A stretch of 64,000 nt of DNA from Sphingomonas mollis. Its GTDB lineage: Bacteria > Pseudomonadota > Alphaproteobacteria > Sphingomonadales > Sphingomonadaceae. Below the pieces are notes generated by a model that saw nothing but the letters and a program-made list of their open reading frames with translations, was not told where the DNA came from and ran no database searches. This document shows, one piece after another, positions 50,843-60,554 of the stretch. Position 1 is the stretch's first letter. The number at the start of each line of letters is the position of its first letter. The translations under genes were made by a program, and so were the position numbers. Location of the stretch: contig NZ_JAELXS010000001.1 in NCBI RefSeq assembly GCF_016427505.1, positions 248,001 to 312,000 of the forward strand, written 5' to 3'.

Positions 50843-51604
50843 CTAGGGAAGCAGCGTTCTGACCAGGTCGAGGTCGGCGGGTTTGTCGACGTCGACGGCG
50901 GCCAGGCCATAGGGCGTCGCGACCACGGCCGCTTCCACGCCGGCACGGCGGCCGAGATGGCGAACGGCATCGTTCAACGTCAGGCGGCCGGTCAGGTAGC
51001 GGAGGAGCAGGCCGGGGCCGAGGCGGCGGACGATGCGCCAGGGGCGCTTGCGATCCGCCTCGACCTGCGCCCACAGGCCGATCGCGGCGGCGGCGCGGGG
51101 GGTGGCAAGCCAGAACAGGTTGCATCCCGACCATGCGCCATCGGCGAAGCGCAGATAGGTGCGGCGCGTGCCGGGCGCCGCCGCCTCGATCACGTCCTGC
51201 CGCGCCAGTAATGTCGCCACATCCGTGCCCGGCGGCAGATCGGCGATGAAGCGGTCGATCCACGCCGGCTGCAACAAGGCATGGTCGGCGGTGGTGACGA
51301 GCAGGGGCGCCCCCAGCGCCTCCAGCCCGCGCGCGACGCTGCCGCTCGGTCCCGACGCGGTCGGGATCACGCGCAGGCTCAGCCGGTTCGCCTCGGCAAT
51401 GACGGCGGGATCGTCCGCCGACACCGCGATCATCGTCGCGCCGGCCCCGCGCACGGCGGCGGCGACGCGGGCAAGCAGCGTCTCGCCGTTCAGCACGATC
51501 AGCGCCTTGTGCGGCACCCCAGCATAGGCGGCGAGCGGATCGACCACCCCCGGCCGCGACCCGGCGAGGATCAATGCCGACCAGCCTGTCGCCGTGTCGG
51601 TCAT
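50843..51604 (-). CDS. MobA-like NTP transferase
   Basis: This 253-residue protein has the nucleotidyltransferase fold of the MobA/GT-A type. The N-terminus WSALILAGSRPGVVDPLAAYAGVPHKALIVLNGETLLARV carries the nucleotide-binding loop in the usual place. The metal-binding acidic position is likely in VTTADHALLQP. It is not molybdenum-specific by sequence, so transfer of a nucleotide to a sugar, polyol or phosphoalcohol is more likely. The start at 51604 overlaps the stop of the preceding unknown protein (ATGA). It is the last gene of a same-strand run that also holds a lipid kinase. Confidence 0.78.
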   Translation of the reverse strand: MTDTATGWSALILAGSRPGVVDPLAAYAGVPHKALIVLNGETLLARVAAAVRGAGATMIAVSADDPAVIAEANRLSLRVIPTASGPSGSVARGLEALGAPLLVTTADHALLQPAWIDRFIADLPPGTDVATLLARQDVIEAAAPGTRRTYLRFADGAWSGCNLFWLATPRAAAAIGLWAQVEADRKRPWRIVRRLGPGLLLRYLTGRLTLNDAVRHLGRRAGVEAAVVATPYGLAAVDVDKPADLDLVRTLLP

Positions 51605-52482
51605 CGCCGCGACCGCCACACTTGCCAGAAGACCGCCGGTGCCGACAGGATCGGATGCCGCTCGCGCCACGGCGTCAGCGCCACCTTCACACCGGTATGC
51701 CGCTCCACCTTCCACAGGCCATAGGCGGCGGCGCCGTCGAAGGTGAAGGCGGCACGGACCAGCCGGGCGATGTTGAGCGGCTTGCCGGCGCGGCGGCGGC
51801 GGTGCCAGCGGGCGAGTATCCGTGCCCGGTCCGACACATCGGGGGTGAGGATGTCGCCGTCGCGGTCGAAGGCGATGCCACCGGCCTGCCACGCCAGCGG
51901 CAGGATCGCCTGATAGCGGCCGGCGCCGTGGTCGAGGATCTGCTCCTCCCGCCCGCTCTTTTCGACGCGCAGTTCGGCGGCATAGGTCTGGCGGAACAGC
52001 GCGCGCCAGTAATCTGCGGCGGTCCCGCGCGCTGGACCGAGCGCGGCGGCGAAGCGTGCGGCGGTTACGGCAGCGGCGGCGATCGCCTGCACCACGCCGG
52101 CGCGGGCCTCGTCATCGCGCTGCCAGACGAGGGCGGCGGGCTGGACGAAGCGGGTCCAGATCGTCGTGTCGATCAGGTCGCCCGATGCCGCCGCCCGAAA
52201 CGTCGCCAGCCGCATCGTCGCGATCTTGGCGCGCAGGGTGACGCCGTCGCGCGTGACTTCACGGTAGCTGACGGTCGGCCACAGCCCGCGTTCCGGCGGG
52301 CCGGCGGTCAGGACGTAGAAATCGAGCACGCCGTCGAGCGAGCCGGTGCGCAGGTTCGATCCATAGAACAGCACCGCCTGCACCGACGGCTCCGCCGCCA
52401 GCATCTCGGCAAGATCGCGCACTTCGATGCGAACCCCGGCGTCCAGCGCGGCGGCGACATACGCGTCCAGCGCGTCAATCAC
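51601..52482 (-). CDS. conserved protein of unknown function with a possible nucleotidyltransferase core
   Basis: This 293-residue protein is not one I can name. The region AVLFYGSNLRTGSLDGVLDFYVLT near residue 45 resembles the GS-x-D-h-[DE]-h core of the polymerase-beta nucleotidyltransferase fold, but the match is partial. The rest is mostly helical and ends in HPILSAPAVFWQVWRSRR. The reading frame requires a GTG start (52482), four bases after the lipid-kinase stop; an ATG in the overlap (52490) is out of frame and closes at once. It is coupled to the MobA-like gene downstream. It probably works with its neighbours in lipid or glycan synthesis. Confidence 0.6.
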   Translation of the reverse strand: MIDALDAYVAAALDAGVRIEVRDLAEMLAAEPSVQAVLFYGSNLRTGSLDGVLDFYVLTAGPPERGLWPTVSYREVTRDGVTLRAKIATMRLATFRAAASGDLIDTTIWTRFVQPAALVWQRDDEARAGVVQAIAAAAVTAARFAAALGPARGTAADYWRALFRQTYAAELRVEKSGREEQILDHGAGRYQAILPLAWQAGGIAFDRDGDILTPDVSDRARILARWHRRRRAGKPLNIARLVRAAFTFDGAAAYGLWKVERHTGVKVALTPWRERHPILSAPAVFWQVWRSRR

Positions 52483-52486
52483 GGGA

Positions 52487-53503
52487 TCATGGGGCGATGA
52501 AGGAGAGAACCGGCCCTTGCCGCACCGCCAGCTTGCCACCGGCGAAATGCTCGCCATCGAGGATGAAGCCATCGTCCAGCGACACCTCGAACGACGCGGT
52601 GTCGATATGGTGATACCCGGCCCGCCGCATCCAGTCGGCTTCCGATCCCGCCAGCAGGGCCGGGACGGTCAGCATCAGCCGCTTCGGCGGCGCATCGACT
52701 ACCAACAGCTTCATGCCGTCACGCGGTTGCCCGAACGGCTTCAGCCCCAGCGGCAACTGGCGCAGCGCAGAGGCGAGCAACAGATAGCGGGGCCGGGGAT
52801 CGACCGACCCGCCGGGCAGCTTCAGACCGAGCGGGGTGCCCACACGCCAACTGCTCGTGGCCCCGCCGAACATCGTCTGGATCAACGCCCAGCCGAGGGC
52901 GAGGCCGACCGCGACGCCGTTGAAGGCACCCGCGCGGTGCGTATGCTGGGCCAGTTCGGTCGCCTTCACGAACGCACCGGCGCCGAACAGGAAACCGCGC
53001 AGCGGGCGCGATCCGTCATCGCGCGCGATCTCGACCGGGCGGCGTTCGACCCGGCGGCCGCGCGTCACGGCGGCCAGCGCATCGGCCAGCGTCCAGCCGG
53101 ACGGAATGCCCAGATCGATCGCCAACGCGTTCGTCTTGCCCGACGGGATCACCGCGATATCGGGCCACTTGCCCTTCCACAGATGCGCGGCACAGGTCAG
53201 TACGTCGCGGACCGTGCCGTCACCACCGTCGATCACCAGCAGGTCGATCTTTCGCTCGGCGAACTCGGCCAGCGTATCGGCTAGTGCGGCGCGGGTGCCG
53301 GGTGCGGCGAGCAGGACGCTGTCGACGCCGGGCACGCCCGCTTCGTACTCCGCGCCATGGTTCAGATGGCTTTTGGGATTGCAGACGATGCCGATGCGCA
53401 GGCGACCGACCGCGGCGGCGGTCGGCGCGGCTTTCACCGTTACCGATCGCGCGGACTCAGGTCCGGCAAAGGCGAGAACGCTGGCAGGCGAAAATGACGA
53501 CAC
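52487..53503 (-). CDS. diacylglycerol/sphingosine kinase-family lipid kinase
   Basis: This 338-residue protein has the DAGK catalytic domain, with the ATP-binding motif IDGGDGTVRD at residues 91-100 and PSGKTNALAIDLGIP shortly after, as in DgkB, YegS and sphingosine kinases. It should phosphorylate a lipid such as diacylglycerol, a ceramide or a long-chain base. Sphingomonads make glycosphingolipids, so a ceramide-type substrate is worth considering, but the sequence cannot decide. It sits four bases before the unknown protein and 68 bases after the DUF2141 gene, on the same strand. Confidence 0.85.
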   Translation of the reverse strand: MSSFSPASVLAFAGPESARSVTVKAAPTAAAVGRLRIGIVCNPKSHLNHGAEYEAGVPGVDSVLLAAPGTRAALADTLAEFAERKIDLLVIDGGDGTVRDVLTCAAHLWKGKWPDIAVIPSGKTNALAIDLGIPSGWTLADALAAVTRGRRVERRPVEIARDDGSRPLRGFLFGAGAFVKATELAQHTHRAGAFNGVAVGLALGWALIQTMFGGATSSWRVGTPLGLKLPGGSVDPRPRYLLLASALRQLPLGLKPFGQPRDGMKLLVVDAPPKRLMLTVPALLAGSEADWMRRAGYHHIDTASFEVSLDDGFILDGEHFAGGKLAVRQGPVLSFIAP

Positions 53504-53571: not shown

Positions 53572-54033
53572 TCAACGACGGTAACGCATCGCCATGCGGA
53601 TGGTCGCACCGCCGGCGGGAACGGCGAACCGTGCGGACGCGAACGAGGGCAGGCCGATCGAGGTCGGCGCATCGTTGGAAAAGCCGAATCCTTCCTTGGG
53701 CGCCCACAGCGTCCGGTTGAAACTGTGGTCGCCATTCTCGTCGTGATATTGCGCGATGGCGTAGTAACCGGGCGGCAGCCAGAAACAGGCGGTGGTCGCC
53801 GGCGCGCGGGTCGGCACGCGCGCGCGCAGCAACTTGCCGCCCTTGGCCAGAAAGCGGCCCTTGTCGTCCGGATAGACGGTGAACGCGACCTCGCCGTCGC
53901 CGCTGTGCAGGCCGGTCGCCTGCACGGTCAGCTTCACCGCATTGCCACCGGGCGTGCCGGTGCAGGATTGCGCCGCCGCCGGGACGGCCGCCATCACGCC
54001 CGACAGGGCGGCGAGCAGGAACAGGGTTTTCAT
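53572..54033 (-). CDS. DUF2141 exported protein
   Basis: This 153-residue secreted protein has a signal peptide (MKTLFLLAALSGVMAAVPAAAQ) and matches DUF2141. Family features are GDGEVAFTVYPDDKGRFL, YYAIAQYHDENGDHSFNRTLWAPKEGFGFSNDA and a C-terminal beta strand. The Asp/Asn-rich DENGD loop suggests calcium binding in a transthyretin-like fold. Start 54033 has AGAG nine bases upstream; ATG 54042 (MRSMKT) is an alternative. Function is unknown, and it may act in the envelope with the neighbouring flippase. Confidence 0.85.
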   Translation of the reverse strand: MKTLFLLAALSGVMAAVPAAAQSCTGTPGGNAVKLTVQATGLHSGDGEVAFTVYPDDKGRFLAKGGKLLRARVPTRAPATTACFWLPPGYYAIAQYHDENGDHSFNRTLWAPKEGFGFSNDAPTSIGLPSFASARFAVPAGGATIRMAMRYRR

Positions 54034-54086: not shown

Positions 54087-55436
54087 TTACTGTGGCGAAT
54101 TGTGGCGAGGGGCGCGTGACAGGCGCAGCGCGGCGATCGCCATCAGCACCGCGACCGCCGCCGATCCCACCGTCACTGCCATCGCGACCCCGGTGGCGCC
54201 GTACCAGGGGGTCAGCATCGCAGTCGCGCCGAACAGCACGCCGACGCCGGCGGCCCGGATCGCGAAGACGCTGCCCGCGCGCTGCATCGCGGTCATCACC
54301 GTATCGACGCCGGTCGTCGCCAGATCGAGGCAGCCGGCGACCGACAGCCACAGCAGGACCGGCCACGCGCCCCGGAAATCACGCCCGCCGACCAGATTCA
54401 GCACCGGCTTGCCCGCCACCAGCACCAGCGCCATGATCGCCACCGCCGCCAGTCCGCTGCCCAGGAACAACCGCGACATCAGCCGCGCAAGGAGCGCCGG
54501 CGGGGCATCGCGCAACGTCTTCACCACCTCCGGAAAAGCGGCACGCGAGATGAGTTGCGACAATTTCGCCAGCGCCTGCGCGATCTGCGAGGCGAGGCGG
54601 AACACGCCCGCCGCCGCCGGTCCCGCCGCCGCGCCGACCAGCAGCAACGGGATCTGCTTGCTCGACAGGCCGAGCGTGGAGCTGGCATTGGTGCTGAGCG
54701 CGAAGCGGACGATGCCGGGATGCTCACGCGCCAGATGCCGCGATCCGCGCCCGCGCCACATCAGCCCCAGATCGCCGCTGCGCGCGACCATGATCCAGTA
54801 TGTCGCCGCGGTCAGCACCTCCGCCGCCGCCCACGCCGCCAGAAACCCCTGCACGGTCGGATGGATCAGCCACACCCCGATCGCGCCGAAGAAGCGCGCG
54901 ACCGGCGTCACGCTGTCGGCGATGGCGGCCAGCGCGAACCGGTCGCGCAGGCGCAGGATGCCGAGCGGCGTCGACCGGATCGTGACGAGCTGGATGATGA
55001 CGAAGATCAGCGTCGCCCGCTTCAGCGTGGCACCGATGCCCAGCGCCTCGCCCCACAGGTCGAGGATCAGCCAGGCCAGCCCGGCCCCGACGATCGATCC
55101 CAGAAAATCGAGGATCGCGCTGCCCCGGAACAGCCGGGCCAGCGCCCCGTCGTCGCGGGTGGCGAGCGGACCGACGCCGTATTGCACGATCACCTGCCAG
55201 CTTTGGAACGCGACCAGCGTCGCCAGCGTCTGCGCCGCGCCGGTGATGAGCGCGAAGCGGCCGAACCCGACGACGCCCAGCGAGCGCGTGGCGATACCCA
55301 GATAGAACAGGGACAGCACCGCCAGCACGCTGCGGCTTGCCAGCAGCCAGCCGAGATTGCGCGCGGCGGCGCGGAACAGGCCGCCCGAACTATCCCCGGA
55401 CGGCAGGGGGGACGATGATGGCGGGGGGCTCGACAT
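54087..55436 (-). CDS. polysaccharide/lipid flippase-like membrane protein (MOP family)
   Basis: This 449-residue protein has about 12-14 transmembrane helices and matches the Wzx-like polysaccharide exporter branch of the MOP superfamily. The first helix pair is LGWLLASRSVLAVLSLFYLGIATRSLGVVGFGRFALIT, and a Pro/Ser-rich N-terminal tail (SSPPPSSSPLPSGDSSGG) precedes it. It should move lipid-linked glycans or similar lipids across the inner membrane. The start at 55436 is 45 bases from the divergent amidotransferase frame. DUF2141 and the lipid kinase follow on the same strand. Confidence 0.82.
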   Translation of the reverse strand: MSSPPPSSSPLPSGDSSGGLFRAAARNLGWLLASRSVLAVLSLFYLGIATRSLGVVGFGRFALITGAAQTLATLVAFQSWQVIVQYGVGPLATRDDGALARLFRGSAILDFLGSIVGAGLAWLILDLWGEALGIGATLKRATLIFVIIQLVTIRSTPLGILRLRDRFALAAIADSVTPVARFFGAIGVWLIHPTVQGFLAAWAAAEVLTAATYWIMVARSGDLGLMWRGRGSRHLAREHPGIVRFALSTNASSTLGLSSKQIPLLLVGAAAGPAAAGVFRLASQIAQALAKLSQLISRAAFPEVVKTLRDAPPALLARLMSRLFLGSGLAAVAIMALVLVAGKPVLNLVGGRDFRGAWPVLLWLSVAGCLDLATTGVDTVMTAMQRAGSVFAIRAAGVGVLFGATAMLTPWYGATGVAMAVTVGSAAVAVLMAIAALRLSRAPRHNSPQ

Positions 55437-55481
55437 GCGTCCGTCGGGGATTAAGCGGCTCGACCGGATGCGGCAAGAGCC

Positions 55482-57431
55482 GTGACATGGCGGGCGGGTC
55501 CGCCCTATGCGCTGATCGCGATCAATCGGGAGTATGGCACCATCTGCGGCATCGCCGGTCTTTATGCACGCGGACGGGGCGTCTCCGCCGACACGGTGCG
55601 CGCGCAATGCGCCGCGATCGTCCACCGCGGTCCGGACGACGAGGGCGTGTTCGTCGATCGCGATTTCGGATTCGGCATGCGGCGGCTCAGCATCGTCGAT
55701 CTGGCCGGCGGGCATCAGCCCTTTCATTCGCCGGGTGGCCGCTATGCGCTGGTGTTCAACGGCGAAATCTACAACTTCCCCGCCCTGCGCGCCGAGCTGG
55801 CGGCGATGGGCCGGGCGTTCGACAGCCATGGTGATACCGAGGTCGTTCTGGCCGGCTATGAACGCTGGGGCGACGGCATCTGGTCGCGGCTGGACGGGAT
55901 GTTCGCGGTGGCGGTGTGGGATCGGGCGACCCGCACGCTGACGCTGGCGCGCGACCCGGTGGGGATCAAGCCTCTCTATTATACCGACCAGCCCGCCGGG
56001 TTCGCCTTCGCATCGGAACTGAAGGCGCTGACGCTGCTGCCTGGTTTCGCGTTCGACACCGACGAGCGCGGGCTGCTCGACTATTTCCGCTTCGGGCATG
56101 TGCGAACGCCGCGATCGATCCATGCGCAGGTCAGGACGCTGCCGCCGGGGCATGTGCTGACGCTGGCGGCGGGCGGCGAGCCGGTGCTGCGTGCGTATTG
56201 GACGCCGCGCTACACGACGCCCGAACCGCTCGGCGACGGCGAATGGGTCGACCGGTTCCGCACCCGGTGGCTGGAAACCGTGGCGGAACAGATGGTCGCG
56301 GATGTCGAGGTCGGCGCGTTCCTGTCGGGTGGAGTCGATTCGTCGGCGGTGGTGGCCGCGATGATGCGGATATCCGATCGCCCGGTCCGCACCTTCACGA
56401 TCGGTTTCCCCGACCCGCGCGTCGACGAAAGCGGCCCGGCGGAGGCGATCGCCCGCGCGCTCGGCACCCGTCACGAAAGCCGGCGACTGGAAATGGCCCA
56501 CGCCCGCGATCTGCTGCCGGCGGTGGCGGCGGCCTATGACGAGCCGTTCGCCGACCCGTCGATGGTGCCGACCTGGTATGTCAGCAAGGTGGCGGCCGAA
56601 CAGGTGAAGGTCGCGCTGTCGGGGGACGGCGGCGACGAACTGTTCTTCGGCTATAAACGCCACGCCACCGAACGCCGGATCGGCCGCCTGCCAGCCCCCC
56701 TGCGCCATGCCGCCCGGGCGATCGGCGCGATCCCGCCGCTGCCCTCGCGCGCGCTGAACGAGCGTATCCAGCGATGGACGAAGACGGCGGCGAGCGCGGG
56801 CCTGCCCAGCGGCGTCGCGCGGTTCTTCGCCAAGACGCAGATCACGGCGGCGGGCTTTCGAAATCGCGTCTTCACCCCCGATTTCCTCGCCCGCGCCGGT
56901 GGCGGCGAGGGTGAGATCGAGCGGCTGTGCGCAGAATATTTTCCCGATGCCGGTGCGATTTCGGCCGACACGCTGGAGCAGTTCGGCCTGTGCGACCTGG
57001 CGCTCAACCTGCCCGGCGCGATGCTGACCAAAGTCGATCGCGCCAGCATGGCGCACTCGCTGGAGGTGCGGGTGCCGATGCTCGGCCAGCCGATGATCGA
57101 TCTGGCATTGGGGACGCCGGTGCACATGAAGCTGAACGGCCGGGTGGGGAAGCATGTGGTGCGCGAAGCCATCGCGCCATGGCTGCCCACCGGCATCCTC
57201 GACCGCCGCAAGCAGGGTTTCCAGATGCCGCTGTCGGCGTGGTTCGCGGGCGATTTCGGTCGCTATGCCGAGGAGCTGTGGCGCGACAGCGGTGCGCGAG
57301 GCGAGAGTATCTGGCACGCGGCGGCGGTGGATCGGGTGTTCGCCGATCACCGTGCGGGGAAGCGGGATTACAGCCGCTTTCTTTACGCGCTGGCGGTGTA
57401 TTGTTTGTGGCGGGTCAGGACGGGCTCCTGA
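55482..57431 (+). CDS. AsnB-type glutamine-dependent amidotransferase/asparagine synthetase, start codon unclear
   Basis: This protein matches the AsnB/exopolysaccharide asparagine-synthase family. It has an N-terminal class II glutaminase domain (CGIAGLYARGRG, VHRGPDDEG, LVFNGEIYN, SHGDTEVVL) and a C-terminal synthetase domain with the ATP motif FLSGGVDSSAV. In this family the catalytic Cys is residue 2 after Met. Here the codon before that Cys is ATC (55542-55544), with GGGAG nine bases upstream and no ATG, GTG or TTG in that position. The only in-frame ATG (55482) adds 21 residues before Cys22. Either an AUC start or a cleaved propeptide is required. Such enzymes amidate sugars or amino acids in surface polysaccharides. 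Confidence 0.85.
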   Translation: MTWRAGPPYALIAINREYGTICGIAGLYARGRGVSADTVRAQCAAIVHRGPDDEGVFVDRDFGFGMRRLSIVDLAGGHQPFHSPGGRYALVFNGEIYNFPALRAELAAMGRAFDSHGDTEVVLAGYERWGDGIWSRLDGMFAVAVWDRATRTLTLARDPVGIKPLYYTDQPAGFAFASELKALTLLPGFAFDTDERGLLDYFRFGHVRTPRSIHAQVRTLPPGHVLTLAAGGEPVLRAYWTPRYTTPEPLGDGEWVDRFRTRWLETVAEQMVADVEVGAFLSGGVDSSAVVAAMMRISDRPVRTFTIGFPDPRVDESGPAEAIARALGTRHESRRLEMAHARDLLPAVAAAYDEPFADPSMVPTWYVSKVAAEQVKVALSGDGGDELFFGYKRHATERRIGRLPAPLRHAARAIGAIPPLPSRALNERIQRWTKTAASAGLPSGVARFFAKTQITAAGFRNRVFTPDFLARAGGGEGEIERLCAEYFPDAGAISADTLEQFGLCDLALNLPGAMLTKVDRASMAHSLEVRVPMLGQPMIDLALGTPVHMKLNGRVGKHVVREAIAPWLPTGILDRRKQGFQMPLSAWFAGDFGRYAEELWRDSGARGESIWHAAAVDRVFADHRAGKRDYSRFLYALAVYCLWRVRTGS

Positions 57432-57598: not shown

Positions 57599-58690
57599 TC
57601 ACGCCAGCCAGCTCACCATCGCCACGCCGGCGCGCTTCACCGCCATCGCCTGCAACAGCCGCACCAGATGCACCACCAGCGAGATCGCGGTCCACGCGGC
57701 CACCCCGATGATCCCCCAGTCCGGCCGCCCGATCAGCAGTCCGGCGAGCAGGATCACCATGTTCGGATTGCGCCGCGCGGTGACCAGCCGGAAATCGCTG
57801 TCGAATTTCTGCCAGACATGGATGTGCATCCCGAAGCGGACGATGAACGCTCCCTCGATCAGCCGTTGCGCGACATAGCCGAACAACATCGTGCCGATCA
57901 CGATCCAGAACATCTCGTCCGACAGCGCCCGGCCATAGGGTGCACACCCCGCCGCCCATGCCCACCACCAGAAGGGCGGATGGACCAGATCGACGCCGTG
58001 ATCCCACGCATTGCCCAGTTTCGACGAGGTGATCGTGCACCGCGCCAGCTTCCCGTCGACGGTGTCGAGCACCATGAAGACGAGGCCGGTGGCGAGGCCG
58101 GTCCAGAACCAGCCGTACCAGAACGCCACCGTCGCCATGATGCACAGCACGCTGCCGATCGCGGTGATGCCGTTGGGGCTGATCCCGATACGCGCCGACA
58201 GCTGCGTCAGCCGGAACGCCCATTCGGGCCAGAGATATTTGGTCAGGACGTCGGTCACGCCCTTGTACGCACCCTTGTAGCTCAGCCGCTCGATCGCCGG
58301 CACGGTCGCGGGGGTCAGCGGTTCCATGAACGGCCGTTCGCGCTTCCTCAGCACCTCGTTCAGGATGCCAGCCTCGTCCTCCGCCTCGATCACCTTTAGG
58401 CCGGGGAGCGGCCGGCCGGCGATCATCAGCGCCGCCGCCTCGTTCGCCTCGACCTCGCCGACATGCGCCAGCACCGGCCGGCCGTTCCGCGTCACGACCG
58501 TGCCGGGCCGGGATTTCAGATACGTGGTCCACATCGGATCGAACGCGTAATCCAGATGCGCCAGGATGATGGTGGGACCCTGTTCGTCGAACCCCTGCGC
58601 CTGCGAGATGCGGCGCACGCGTTCGGCATTGGTCATGCCCCATAGATGCGTGGAATTGTCGCCGATGGTGGCGAGCGCGGGAGAAGTCAT
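57599..58690 (-). CDS. CDP-alcohol phosphatidyltransferase with an N-terminal extra domain
   Basis: This 363-residue enzyme has the CDP-alcohol phosphatidyltransferase motif D-x2-D-G-x2-A-R-x8-G-x3-D-x3-D complete: D209, D212, G213, A216, R217, G226, D230 and D234 (VLDTVDGKLAR and GNAWDHGVD). About five transmembrane helices surround it. The first 130 residues are a soluble domain (ILAHLDYAFDPMWTTYLKSRPGTVV) that resembles a worn-down nucleotidyltransferase domain, as in two-domain inositol-phosphate enzymes. It joins a CDP-activated alcohol to another alcohol or lipid. It follows the glycerophosphotransferase-like gene by 17 bases in one operon. Confidence 0.85.
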   Translation of the reverse strand: MTSPALATIGDNSTHLWGMTNAERVRRISQAQGFDEQGPTIILAHLDYAFDPMWTTYLKSRPGTVVTRNGRPVLAHVGEVEANEAAALMIAGRPLPGLKVIEAEDEAGILNEVLRKRERPFMEPLTPATVPAIERLSYKGAYKGVTDVLTKYLWPEWAFRLTQLSARIGISPNGITAIGSVLCIMATVAFWYGWFWTGLATGLVFMVLDTVDGKLARCTITSSKLGNAWDHGVDLVHPPFWWWAWAAGCAPYGRALSDEMFWIVIGTMLFGYVAQRLIEGAFIVRFGMHIHVWQKFDSDFRLVTARRNPNMVILLAGLLIGRPDWGIIGVAAWTAISLVVHLVRLLQAMAVKRAGVAMVSWLA

Positions 58691-58707
58691 GGGGGCGCGT
58701 TACCCCA

Positions 58708-59841
58708 TCACGCTCGTTTGTCGAGCAGGTCCCGGATGACCCGTGCCGCGCGTGCGGGGGCTGACCCGCGCGTGTCGCCCAGCGAGTCGCCTGCGAACCG
58801 TGCCTGGATCGCGGCAAACGAATCATGCACCGCCGGTGCCCGCGCCAGCATCGGCAGCAGATCGCCGACATCGTTCACGACCTCACCGCAGGTCCATTGC
58901 GCATAGGAGGGATCGCCCCGCCACTCGACGCCGCCCGCATTCAGGAACACGCAGGGGCGCGGGCGTTGCAGGAATTCGATCACCTGGCTCGACGTATCGC
59001 CCAGATAGAGGTCGGCGGCGGCGGTGTAGCTGCCATCGACCATCGCGAAGCCATCCATGTCGCAATGGACGTTGGGCAGGCCGCGTACCTCGTCCATCAC
59101 CGCCCGCACCTCCGGCGCACCCTCCGCCAGCCGCTGATGCGGCGCGAAGATCAGGTTCCAGCGGCCATCCTGGGCGATCCGCCGCACGGTATCGGCCCCC
59201 CATGCCCACCAGGACGAGCGGTGTCGCTGCCAATGCGGGGCATAGAGGATCGTCGGACGCGGCTCGGCAAAGGGCAGATTGGTCATGCTCCGCTGCCGGA
59301 ACGACGCCTTCACATATCCCGTCGCCACCACCCGCGCCGGATCGAAGCCGCGTTCGAGATACGTCGCGCGTTCCCGCTCGCTCGGCACCATCATCACCGC
59401 GGCGGCGCGGCGGCGAGGATCGTCGCGCGCGCTCATCGATCCGACGCCGTGCGAGGTCTTCACGAAGGGCGTGCGCAGCGGCAGCAAGCGCGGCAGCCAC
59501 AGGCTGGTCTGTTCCGCACACACCGCCGCGCGGGCGCGCAGCAGATGCGGCAACAGCCGCAGCAACGTCGGGATTTTGGGCGGCAGCGGCGGATTCTGTC
59601 CCTCGCCCGCGTCGGCGATCCGCCGGAACCCCGGCACCCGGCGGATGCGGACGCCGGTCAGCCCCTCGCTCCACCGGGTCAGCAGCGTTTCGTGGACGGA
59701 GGTCGCCACCCACAGGTCGATCGCCACATCGCCGTCCGCCGCCAGCGCCTCGACGATCGGATAGAGATGCGGGATCAACAACGTCTCGCCCAGGAACAGG
59801 AAGGCGACCGGACCCTTTTTCTTCGGGCCTTGCCGGCTCAA
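58708..59841 (-). CDS. CDP-glycerol glycerophosphotransferase-like protein
   Basis: This 377-residue protein resembles the CDP-glycerol glycerophosphotransferase/TagB-TagF family, which adds phospho-polyol units to glycans or lipids. Visible family parts are GPVAFLFLGETLLIPHLYPIVEAL, KTSHGVGSM, PTILYAPHWQRHRSSWW and DLYLGDTSSQVIEFLQRPRPCVFLN. The start must be a TTG (59841) whose TTGA overlaps the stop of the cytidylyltransferase gene; GGGAG lies eight bases upstream. In Gram-positive bacteria such enzymes make teichoic acids. In a Gram-negative host they occur in capsule and surface-glycan clusters, which fits this envelope-gene region. Confidence 0.82.
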   Translation of the reverse strand: MSRQGPKKKGPVAFLFLGETLLIPHLYPIVEALAADGDVAIDLWVATSVHETLLTRWSEGLTGVRIRRVPGFRRIADAGEGQNPPLPPKIPTLLRLLPHLLRARAAVCAEQTSLWLPRLLPLRTPFVKTSHGVGSMSARDDPRRRAAAVMMVPSERERATYLERGFDPARVVATGYVKASFRQRSMTNLPFAEPRPTILYAPHWQRHRSSWWAWGADTVRRIAQDGRWNLIFAPHQRLAEGAPEVRAVMDEVRGLPNVHCDMDGFAMVDGSYTAAADLYLGDTSSQVIEFLQRPRPCVFLNAGGVEWRGDPSYAQWTCGEVVNDVGDLLPMLARAPAVHDSFAAIQARFAGDSLGDTRGSAPARAARVIRDLLDKRA

Positions 59842-60554
59842 GCGCCATGCTCCCGTCGCCAGCGTTCGATATCGTCGGGCCGGTCGATCTCCTGCCAGTG
59901 CGCGTCGCGCGGCACGGTGACGGCGGCGACCGCATCGACGCCTGCCAGCCGGTCGATAATCGCATGGTGGAACGCATGGATGCCGTCCGCCGCGCCGATG
60001 ACCGCGCGAAGCGCGTCGGCATAGGCGCCGCCCCCCTTCGACGCGACGACGCCCAGCGACCGGTGCGTCGCCCGCGCGGTATCCAGCGTCTTGCCGACCG
60101 CGCGCACGCGGTTGCTCGCCACCTCGACCAGCATGTCGTCCGGCTCCGGCTCGTCCAGCGTATCGACCACCAGTTTCACGCCGCGCCGTTCGTCGTTCAC
60201 CGCGGCGGCGAGGATACCGGCATCGAACACCGTATCGCCATTCATCAGCACAAACGGATCGTTCAGGCAGGCGCGCGCCGCCCAGACGCTGCCGATGCTG
60301 CTGCCCGCCGCCCAGAACGGATTGAAGATCAGGTCGGTCGCCACCGCGCCGCCATGCCGCGCCAGATGCTCGGCGATCTGTTCGACCCGGTAACCGCCGA
60401 CGACCACGGCGTGGCGAATCCCCGCCTGCTCCACCGCGCGCAACTGATGATCCAGGATCGCGCGACCGCCCACCGGCACCAGGCATTTCGGCGTCTCCAG
60501 CGTCAGCGGCAACAGGCGCGAGCCCTGGCCCGCCGCGATGATGATGGCTTTCAT
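59838..60554 (-). CDS. LicC-like nucleotidyltransferase
   Basis: This 238-residue cytoplasmic enzyme has a GT-A-type nucleotidyltransferase fold. The signature MKAIIIAAGQGSRLLPLTLETPKCLVPVGGRAILDHQLRAVE is that of sugar-phosphate and phosphocholine cytidylyltransferases. NPFWAAGSSIGSVWAARACL and FVLMNGDTVFD resemble LicC-type proteins. It most likely makes CDP-activated choline, glycerol or another polyol for the next two gene products. The start at 60554 gives the normal length. It is the first gene of the three-gene operon 60554-57599 (minus strand). Confidence 0.82.
   Translation of the reverse strand: MKAIIIAAGQGSRLLPLTLETPKCLVPVGGRAILDHQLRAVEQAGIRHAVVVGGYRVEQIAEHLARHGGAVATDLIFNPFWAAGSSIGSVWAARACLNDPFVLMNGDTVFDAGILAAAVNDERRGVKLVVDTLDEPEPDDMLVEVASNRVRAVGKTLDTARATHRSLGVVASKGGGAYADALRAVIGAADGIHAFHHAIIDRLAGVDAVAAVTVPRDAHWQEIDRPDDIERWRREHGA

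Follow-up and report, generated by a model that had tools for sequence, protein, structure and literature searches.

What does a three-gene operon that combines a predicted nucleotidyltransferase, a possible teichoic-acid-type transferase and a CDP-alcohol phosphotransferase make in a Gram-negative bacterium? The question is raised by positions 57599–60554 of a 64,000-nucleotide stretch of Sphingomonas mollis DNA (the window; RefSeq assembly GCF_016427505.1, contig NZ_JAELXS010000001.1, positions 248,001–312,000 of the forward strand). An earlier note, made from the sequence of the window, had proposed that the three genes make, activate and attach a phospho-alcohol to a lipid or glycan, in a teichoic-acid-like or new phosphoglycosphingolipid pathway. 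The homologies described here make it highly probable that the operon represents, in rearranged form, part of the ceramide phosphoglycerate (CPG, then CPG2) pathway of Caulobacter, which was described recently and by which ceramide lipids of the outer membrane receive acidic phosphoglycerate groups. Judged from its genes, the window holds a variant of this known pathway in which the activating enzyme is altered and a TagF-like gene is added. The likely product is an anionic phosphosphingolipid resembling CPG2, the headgroup of which may be changed or longer.

The three minus-strand genes, P0001, P0002 and P0003, are coupled as the note described: the bases TTGA (59841–59838) are common to the TTG start of P0002 and the stop codon of P0001, and 17 bases separate P0002 from P0003. 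P0001 is indeed LicC-like, a nucleotidyltransferase (NTase) of the LicC/IPCT type that matches PF12804 and PF00483. P0003 is a CDP-alcohol phosphotransferase (PF01066) that matches CEPT1/CHPT1 in the Protein Data Bank (PDB; E 5e-7), and its extra N-terminal domain, an extension of approximately 120–140 residues, is common to all 13 aligned CpgA-type proteins, that of Caulobacter included. The idea that this domain is a degenerate nucleotidyltransferase gained no support (hhalign probability of 0.1% in one profile comparison, with nucleotidyltransferase profile A4). Homologues of four further pathway genes, P0004 to P0007, lie 2–7 kb past the operon on the same strand, which places seven pathway-type genes on one strand within 10 kb. 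P0006, P0005 and P0004 are tightly coupled (a 4-base gap between P0006 and P0005, an ATGA overlap between P0005 and P0004), and P0006 has no second match in its own genome at E ≤ 0.01.

Table 1. Genes of the operon and of the region downstream of it, in window coordinates.
Gene	Assignment	Position	Strand	Remarks
P0001	CpgD-type cytidylyltransferase (NTase), variant clade	59838..60554	-	238 aa; PF12804 E 5.5e-15, PF00483 E 7.6e-13
P0002	distant TagF/TarL-related transferase	58708..59841	-	TTG start at 59841; family profile, likeness to protein at CC_1167 position
P0003	CpgA-type CDP-alcohol phosphotransferase, extra N-terminal domain	57599..58690	-	363 aa; PF01066 E 1.7e-7
	amidotransferase	55482..57431	+	plus-strand gene interrupting the minus-strand series
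P0007	MOP-type flippase, CC_1166-like	54087..55436	-	Pfam Polysacc_synt; 30% to C. vibrioides flippase
	DUF2141 protein, signal-peptide-like N-terminus	53572..54033	-	PF09912 E 6.2e-24; recurrent module neighbour
P0006	lipid kinase (DAGK-type), CpgB-type (ceramide kinase)	52487..53503	-	PF00781 E 1.8e-13; 44% to CpgB
P0005	CpgC-type, pol-beta-like nucleotidyltransferase signature	51601..52482	-	likely GTG start at 52482; no clear Pfam family
P0004	MobA/CofC-like nucleotidyltransferase, CC_1153-type	50843..51604	-	PF12804; 60% to CC_1153

The reference locus is that of C. vibrioides DSM 9893, which was located through a primer from the CpgD paper (stretch L128) and completed by a second stretch (L131), with gene identities assigned by position along the published order CC_1168–CC_1152 (PMC11324152). 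L131 has the order LptC, CC_1167 type, flippase, AasR, CerR, AcpR, Spt (serine palmitoyltransferase), CpgC, CpgB, CpgA, metallophosphatase and HIT, and L128 continues with Lpt, CerS, CC_1153 and CpgD, matching the published order. LptC was confirmed by PF06835, and its run through the CC_1167 type and the flippase to AasR corresponds to CC_1168–CC_1165; the N-terminus of CpgD in L128 reads MQPVKTL, and the published residues R16, K26 and D112 are in place. Sequence identity to these proteins is 42% for P0003 (CpgA), 60% over 245 columns for P0004 (CC_1153), 51% over 297 columns for P0005 (CpgC; 55% over residues 35–323), 44% for P0006 (CpgB) and 30% for P0007 (CC_1166). The published descriptions of CC_1161 (CpgC) as CDP-diacylglycerol (CDP-DAG)-synthase-like, of CC_1153 as CofC-like and of CC_1159 (CpgA) as a CDP-alcohol enzyme (PMC11324152) agree with the families found for P0005, P0004 and P0003, respectively. 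The likeness of CpgC-type proteins to Tam41 is marginal, 1 of 20 homologues matching PF09139 (E 5.5e-5; 23.1 bits, below the cut-off of 24). CpgB is the ceramide kinase (PMC10331486), and CpgD is a phosphoglycerate cytidylyltransferase with CDP-glycerate as its product (PMC12275187), rather than a CDP derivative of glycerol, inositol or choline, the alcohols suggested earlier.

On these homologies, the earlier idea of one coupled unit that places a CDP-activated phospho-compound on a lipid, in a Gram-negative host of sphingolipid type, appears sound. The proposed new teichoic-acid-like pathway gives way to a variant of the Caulobacter phosphosphingolipid set, and 'phosphoglyco-' is unsupported because no glycosyltransferase was seen in the stretch from 50.8 to 60.6 kb. 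The note had also said what would count against it: a gene order matching that of an already characterised set with a defined product, which is largely what the Caulobacter set provides, or a loss of active-site residues, which was not found for the CDP-alcohol phosphotransferase. The P0003 motif D209-D212-G213-A216-R217-G226-D230-D234 is invariant in 13 of 13 aligned CpgA-type proteins, and the catalytic Arg, Lys and Asp of the NTase are kept.

The set occurs whole in relatives. In two genomes of the same genus (G634 and G519) and one of the same family (G449), one strand carries, in order, a variant NTase, a P0002-type gene, CpgA, CpgB, CpgC and CC_1153 (loci L188, L191 and L192), and with the flippase all seven genes are together in these three relatives. 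The place of the flippase varies: it separates CpgA from CpgB, precedes the NTase, or follows CC_1153 on the opposite strand; in G519 a DUF2141 gene lies between CpgA and CpgB. Because the full ordered set is present in these genomes, the window is, by gene order, a looser version of an array that is intact elsewhere.

High-scoring Spt matches accompany the pathway genes. The S. mollis genome has an Spt outside the window (G000:C18) with 802 bits, above the curated cut-off of 670, and ceramide synthesis, judged on Spt, is assigned to this genome. Homologues of CpgC occur in 28 of 240 alphaproteobacteria and Spt-type matches of at least 430 bits in 32, and all 28 CpgC-positive genomes are among these 32 (Fisher 1.3e-32, for genomes that are not independent). 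Neighbourhoods were fetched around 40 chosen places in the family (31 with a close CpgA, 9 with distant types), 20 of the 28 CpgC genomes and 20 further places. Clustering of open reading frames (ORFs) around the 20 CpgC genes gave LptF/LptG-like genes in 18, kinase, Spt-like and AasR-like genes in 14 each, and CerS-like, CerR-like and AcpR-like genes and a P0003 homologue in 13, 12, 11 and 9, respectively. These labels are a reading against the published order and family matches, and the counts are low estimates owing to contig ends and a simple ORF overlap rule that hides real genes; it hid the P0002-type gene in L191 and the NTase and flippase in L188, and the counts for the 20 further places were redone by tblastn. 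Within the family, close P0003 (CpgA) orthologues (at least 337 bits, a threshold set after viewing the list) occur in 59 of 199 genomes, with some match at E ≤ 0.001 in 86. P0003 is accessory, given this count and the lack of a close orthologue in two genomes of the same genus. The 31 neighbourhoods of close CpgA genes contain a P0004 homologue (36–63% identical) in 21, a CpgD-type/LicC-like NTase in 19, a flippase in 12, CpgB together with CpgC in 6 and a P0002 homologue in 6.

The activating enzyme is where the window departs from the canonical pathway. P0001 is 31% identical to Caulobacter CpgD over 236 columns and keeps R16, K26, N110, D112, M147, K161 and S170, with Ser at N90 and Phe at W201, on the Mg side; for these two changes it is filed as CpgD-like rather than as CpgD. 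The P0001 matches in 397 family genomes fall into two groups split by a score gap: 17 genomes, including that of the window, with at least 205 bits (the other 16 at 48–62% identity to P0001), and the remainder at 30–39% identity and at most 162 bits. The cut-off was set after viewing the score list; seven first-look candidates per genome were scored, and second copies may be missed. The 17 variants form one clade (support of 98/99), and in all 17 distinct sequences Asn90 is replaced by Ser, and Trp201 by Phe or Tyr. Each of the 25 canonical rows in the tree keeps Asn90, and most keep Trp201 (Tyr in three); Asn110, Met147, Lys161 and Ser170 are kept in both groups. The canonical side was sampled (25 CpgD-type and 5 inositol-type rows of approximately 100), and the own-genome paralogue L126 was dropped from the tree because its aligned piece was short. 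A separate CpgD clade with a fixed change at a glycerate-contacting residue is a first new element.

The position of this change gives rise to the alternative that survives best, namely that the variant clade activates another phospho-compound, such as glycerol phosphate or a modified glycerate, and that the ceramide headgroup is not phosphoglycerate. In the solved CpgD (preprint PMC13228409), Asn90 and Asn110 contact the glycerate directly, Asn90 also contacting the ribose, and Trp201 is near the Mg, on its waters; a change fixed at Asn90 and Trp201 throughout one clade is in keeping with another substrate, as is the presence of both NTase clades in G175, G449, G536 and G182. The other glycerate-side residues named in that structure, Asn110, Met147 and Lys161 (the latter two packing above the glycerate) and Ser170 (acting via waters), are nevertheless all kept. 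Moreover, with all P0001 candidates scored, a canonical CpgD is missing from the S. mollis genome, where the two further matches are 33% identical at 54.6 bits and 31% identical at 39.4 bits, so P0001 probably does the job of CpgD there. Another substrate is therefore regarded as possible, but on balance improbable.

Scanned by itself, P0002 has no match among the Pfam models (E ≤ 1) or the NCBIfam models (E ≤ 0.1). The earlier label 'TagB/TagF-like' stands, weakly, for the family profile and not for this single sequence: Glyphos_transf (PF04464) is matched at E ≤ 1 by 15 of 23 aligned P0002 homologues (best E 4.6e-5), and the 23-member profile has modest matches in the PDB to the TagF-like polymerase Cps3D (E 0.0025) and to TarL (E 0.0029). 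Six family members were scanned singly; the three of CC_1167 type reached 14.8–21.6 bits with PF04464 (cut-off of 22.1), and the three of the P0002 subfamily gave no match. From the distant relation to Cps3D and TarL, the family is likely to be a CDP-donor-using transferase. P0002 and the protein found in C. vibrioides at the CC_1167 position share 37% identity over 299 columns, and the tree places P0002 in a sister subfamily (100/100), which rules out strict orthology to CC_1167.

Genes of the P0002 subfamily (at least 293 bits, a cut-off set after viewing the list) are present in 11 of the 199 family genomes, and 11 of 11 have a close CpgA, against 59 of 199 overall (p 8e-7). Genomes with other P0002 homologues have CpgA in 26 of 71 cases; over all P0002-homologue genomes the figure is 37 of 82, against 22 of 117 for the other genomes. 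These probabilities are too small because related genomes are not independent. Counting all types, 11 P0002 homologues are found at most 10 kb from CpgA, with approximately 0.3 expected. A P0002-type gene adjoins the variant NTase in 14 of 17 genomes (the exceptions being G585, G507 and G191), and CpgA is in the fetched stretch in 10 of 17. By tree and gene order, a distinct TagF-like subfamily that adjoins the variant CpgD (14/17) and occurs only with CpgA (11/11 genomes) is a second new element. The subfamily does not exactly mirror the adjacency to the variant NTase, since four members (L202–L205) are without it and the tree needs three changes. Two P0002-type genes away from cpgA (L202 and L203, in two genomes) directly adjoin a phospholipase-D-like gene, as seen by eye, and the TagF-like gene of G043 (L199, G043:C13) appears broken into two pieces in different frames.

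The enzyme that joins glycerate to activated ceramide was named as a gap in the pathway (PMC11324152). P0002 was rejected as this missing universal enzyme: 23 of 28 CpgC-positive alphaproteobacteria are without a detectable homologue, in a search with a single-sequence query that may miss diverged homologues. For this reason it is taken as an extending or capping step, and it is most likely accessory, since it travels with the variant CpgD and CpgA and is missing from most CpgC-bearing alphaproteobacteria. In one search of open-licence papers, the same paper was the only one found to name CC_1167; it calls CC_1167 'probably unrelated', although its mutant data give a cofitness of 0.57 for CC_1167 with spt and a value of 0.54 with CC_1159. 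An extending or capping role for CC_1167-family genes, which the present comparison suggests, goes beyond the reading given in that paper.

A second alternative is that the NTase and the TagF-like protein decorate a surface polysaccharide, and that the adjacency to cpgA is incidental. The closest PDB relatives of the P0002 family are capsule and teichoic acid polymerases, some pairs are found away from cpgA, by glnA/glnB or other housekeeping genes, and a CC_1167-type paralogue in the S. mollis genome (L206) is among glycosyltransferase-like genes. However, the pair stands together with CpgA, CpgB, CpgC and CC_1153 in the three full arrays, the co-occurrence and proximity with CpgA given above point the other way, and the solitary places (L187, L189, L190 and L202–L204) contain no evident polysaccharide clusters, by eye. 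In Caulobacter, too, the relative of P0002 is part of the sphingolipid cluster, flanked by lptC and the flippase gene, and its cofitness is with sphingolipid genes (PMC11324152). Decoration of a polysaccharide is accordingly considered unlikely. An osmolyte pathway of the DIPP/inositol type (IPCT and DIPPS) is less probable still and was rejected: the NTase and CDP-alcohol phosphotransferase families weakly resemble the IPCT/DIPPS models, and a distant phosphotransferase type of the family adjoins an NTase and a gene read as inositol-phosphate-synthase-like, but no such gene was seen by eye beside the operon, CpgB, CpgC and CC_1153 have no place in that pathway, and the inositol-type NTases, which form their own clade (100/100), have other residues in place of CpgD Asn110, Met147 and Ser170 (Asn90 and Lys161 being present). 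That distant type (L063–L068; approximately 30% identical, some with a second CDP-alcohol phosphotransferase-like gene) likely belongs to a separate inositol-type pathway, and an NTase related to it is present in the S. mollis genome (L125). The match of the neighbouring genes to the Caulobacter phosphosphingolipid set led to the rejection of a teichoic-acid or capsule operon.

Several observations weigh against assigning the operon to the CPG pathway. The identity of P0001 to CpgD is only 31%, and not all glycerate contacts are kept; with Asn90 lost, the substrate may differ from that of CpgD. Seven of the 17 variant NTase genes are without CpgA in the fetched stretch. Of the 199 family genomes, 45 have some type of P0002 homologue but no close CpgA, which indicates that the wider family has other roles, and a homologue is detectable in only 5 of the 28 CpgC-positive alphaproteobacteria; in one genome with a P0002 homologue (G288), both CpgC and a high-scoring Spt are missing. 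The second TagF-like gene of S. mollis (L206, G000:C5:5500-24500), on the CC_1167 side of the tree, adjoins a flippase gene as well as the glycosyltransferase-like genes. No more than 3 of the 240 genomes reach the cut-off of the curated alphaproteobacterial Spt model, and paralogues also match when E ≤ 1e-60 is the sole criterion (177 of 240 genomes and 5 of 14 controls); the 430-bit line, chosen after viewing the list, therefore rests on the score gap to the next match at 263 bits. Finally, AlphaFold models of P0005 and P0002 from single sequences were too poor (pLDDT of 47 and 42), and the Foldseek matches of the P0005 model, to generic nucleotidyltransferases, were excluded from the evidence.

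Assignment to the CPG pathway remains the best explanation, and the following order of steps would fit it. The CpgB-type kinase P0006 would phosphorylate ceramide, and the CpgC-type P0005 would activate the lipid phosphate for the first glycerate. P0001 would make CDP-activated phosphoglycerate or a close analogue, and P0003 would displace cytidine monophosphate (CMP) and add the phospho-compound supplied by P0001 to the lipid in the inner membrane; these roles of donor-maker and transferase are suggested by the published function of CpgD and the intact motif of P0003. P0002 would most likely act as an accessory transferase that uses the same CDP-donor and extends or caps the headgroup, and the flippase and Lpt-like proteins would export the lipid. 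A bolder version is doubtful: in a sphingomonad clade, a CpgD of a second generation (Asn90 to Ser) may have been paired with a TagF-like transferase specific to that clade, giving a new or polymeric ceramide-anchored phospho-headgroup, that is, a lipoteichoic-acid-like sphingolipid in a Gram-negative outer membrane.

The amidotransferase, flippase and lipid kinase that the earlier note placed next to the operon are all there (Table 1). The kinase and the flippase belong to the set, each having a Caulobacter counterpart. The amidotransferase was found in none of the 40 family neighbourhoods and is unsupported as a core pathway member (0/40); over all 80 fetched neighbourhoods it was found in L192 (64%), in L110 (39%) and weakly in L193 and L203. 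It is at most a local partner, given this absence together with the 64% copy that is divergent beside the L192 flippase. The divergent flippase–amidotransferase pair (window 54087–57431) recurs in G449 (L192:14761-18099), beside a full module.

The DUF2141 gene has homologues in 8 of the 80 neighbourhoods at E ≤ 1e-5 and in 10 at E ≤ 1e-3, with one more (L058) found via Pfam, and recurs near CpgB, CpgC and CC_1153 genes in the family and in other alphaproteobacteria (L191, L036, L038, L042, L054, L055, L058, L198, L105, L106 and L116, besides the window). None was found in the C. vibrioides stretch L131. The recurrence of this gene is a third new element. A HIT-family protein is encoded near CpgA and CpgD-type genes in many relatives, at 16 family loci within L031–L061 and at the class loci L102 (PF01230), L107, L110 and L117, in the position of CC_1157, which was called probably unrelated in print (PMC11324152). 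The window has no HIT-family protein; searched by tblastn, the 64-kb window alone has no counterpart of the CC_1158 metallophosphatase or the CC_1157 HIT protein, and CC_1158 is not essential and is missing in several species (PMC11324152).

CPG2-type lipids help Caulobacter to live without lipopolysaccharide and set polymyxin sensitivity (PMC12275187, PMC11324152), and the pathway enzymes after the kinase mostly lack assigned roles. The locus offers three leads. The first is a natural clade of CpgD in which one residue that contacts glycerate has undergone a fixed change; the second is the position and co-occurrence that tie CC_1167-family TagF-like genes to the pathway in an accessory role; the third is the recurrent DUF2141 protein, which may be an exported partner.

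Among known systems, the window is closest to the C. crescentus CPG2 pathway (cpgA–D, CC_1153 and CC_1158), with which it shares homologues of CpgA, CpgB, CpgC, CpgD, CC_1153 and the CC_1166 and CC_1167 types, as well as an Spt in the genome. It differs in that the gene order is broken up, with Spt elsewhere in the genome, that the CpgD belongs to the variant clade, that a TagF-like gene of the sister subfamily lies between cpgD and cpgA, and that a DUF2141 gene is present and the CC_1158 and CC_1157 counterparts are absent from the 64-kb window. P0001 shares the sequence family and the catalytic Arg-Lys-Asp of the LicC/IPCT cytidylyltransferases; however, it groups with CpgD by tree (which contains no LicC itself), by gene company and by Met147-Lys161-Ser170, and the inositol-type relatives differ from it at Met147 and Ser170. 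The P0002 family has distant profile similarity over its C-terminal half to the TagF/TarL/TagB CDP-polyol phosphotransferases (PF04464), whereas P0002 itself sits in a lipid-pathway context, and it and three subfamily members lack a PF04464 match. P0003 has the intact CDP-alcohol phosphotransferase motif of the choline/ethanolamine phosphotransferases and PIP synthases (PF01066) and, unlike them, the extra N-terminal domain that it has in common with the 13 aligned CpgA-type proteins.

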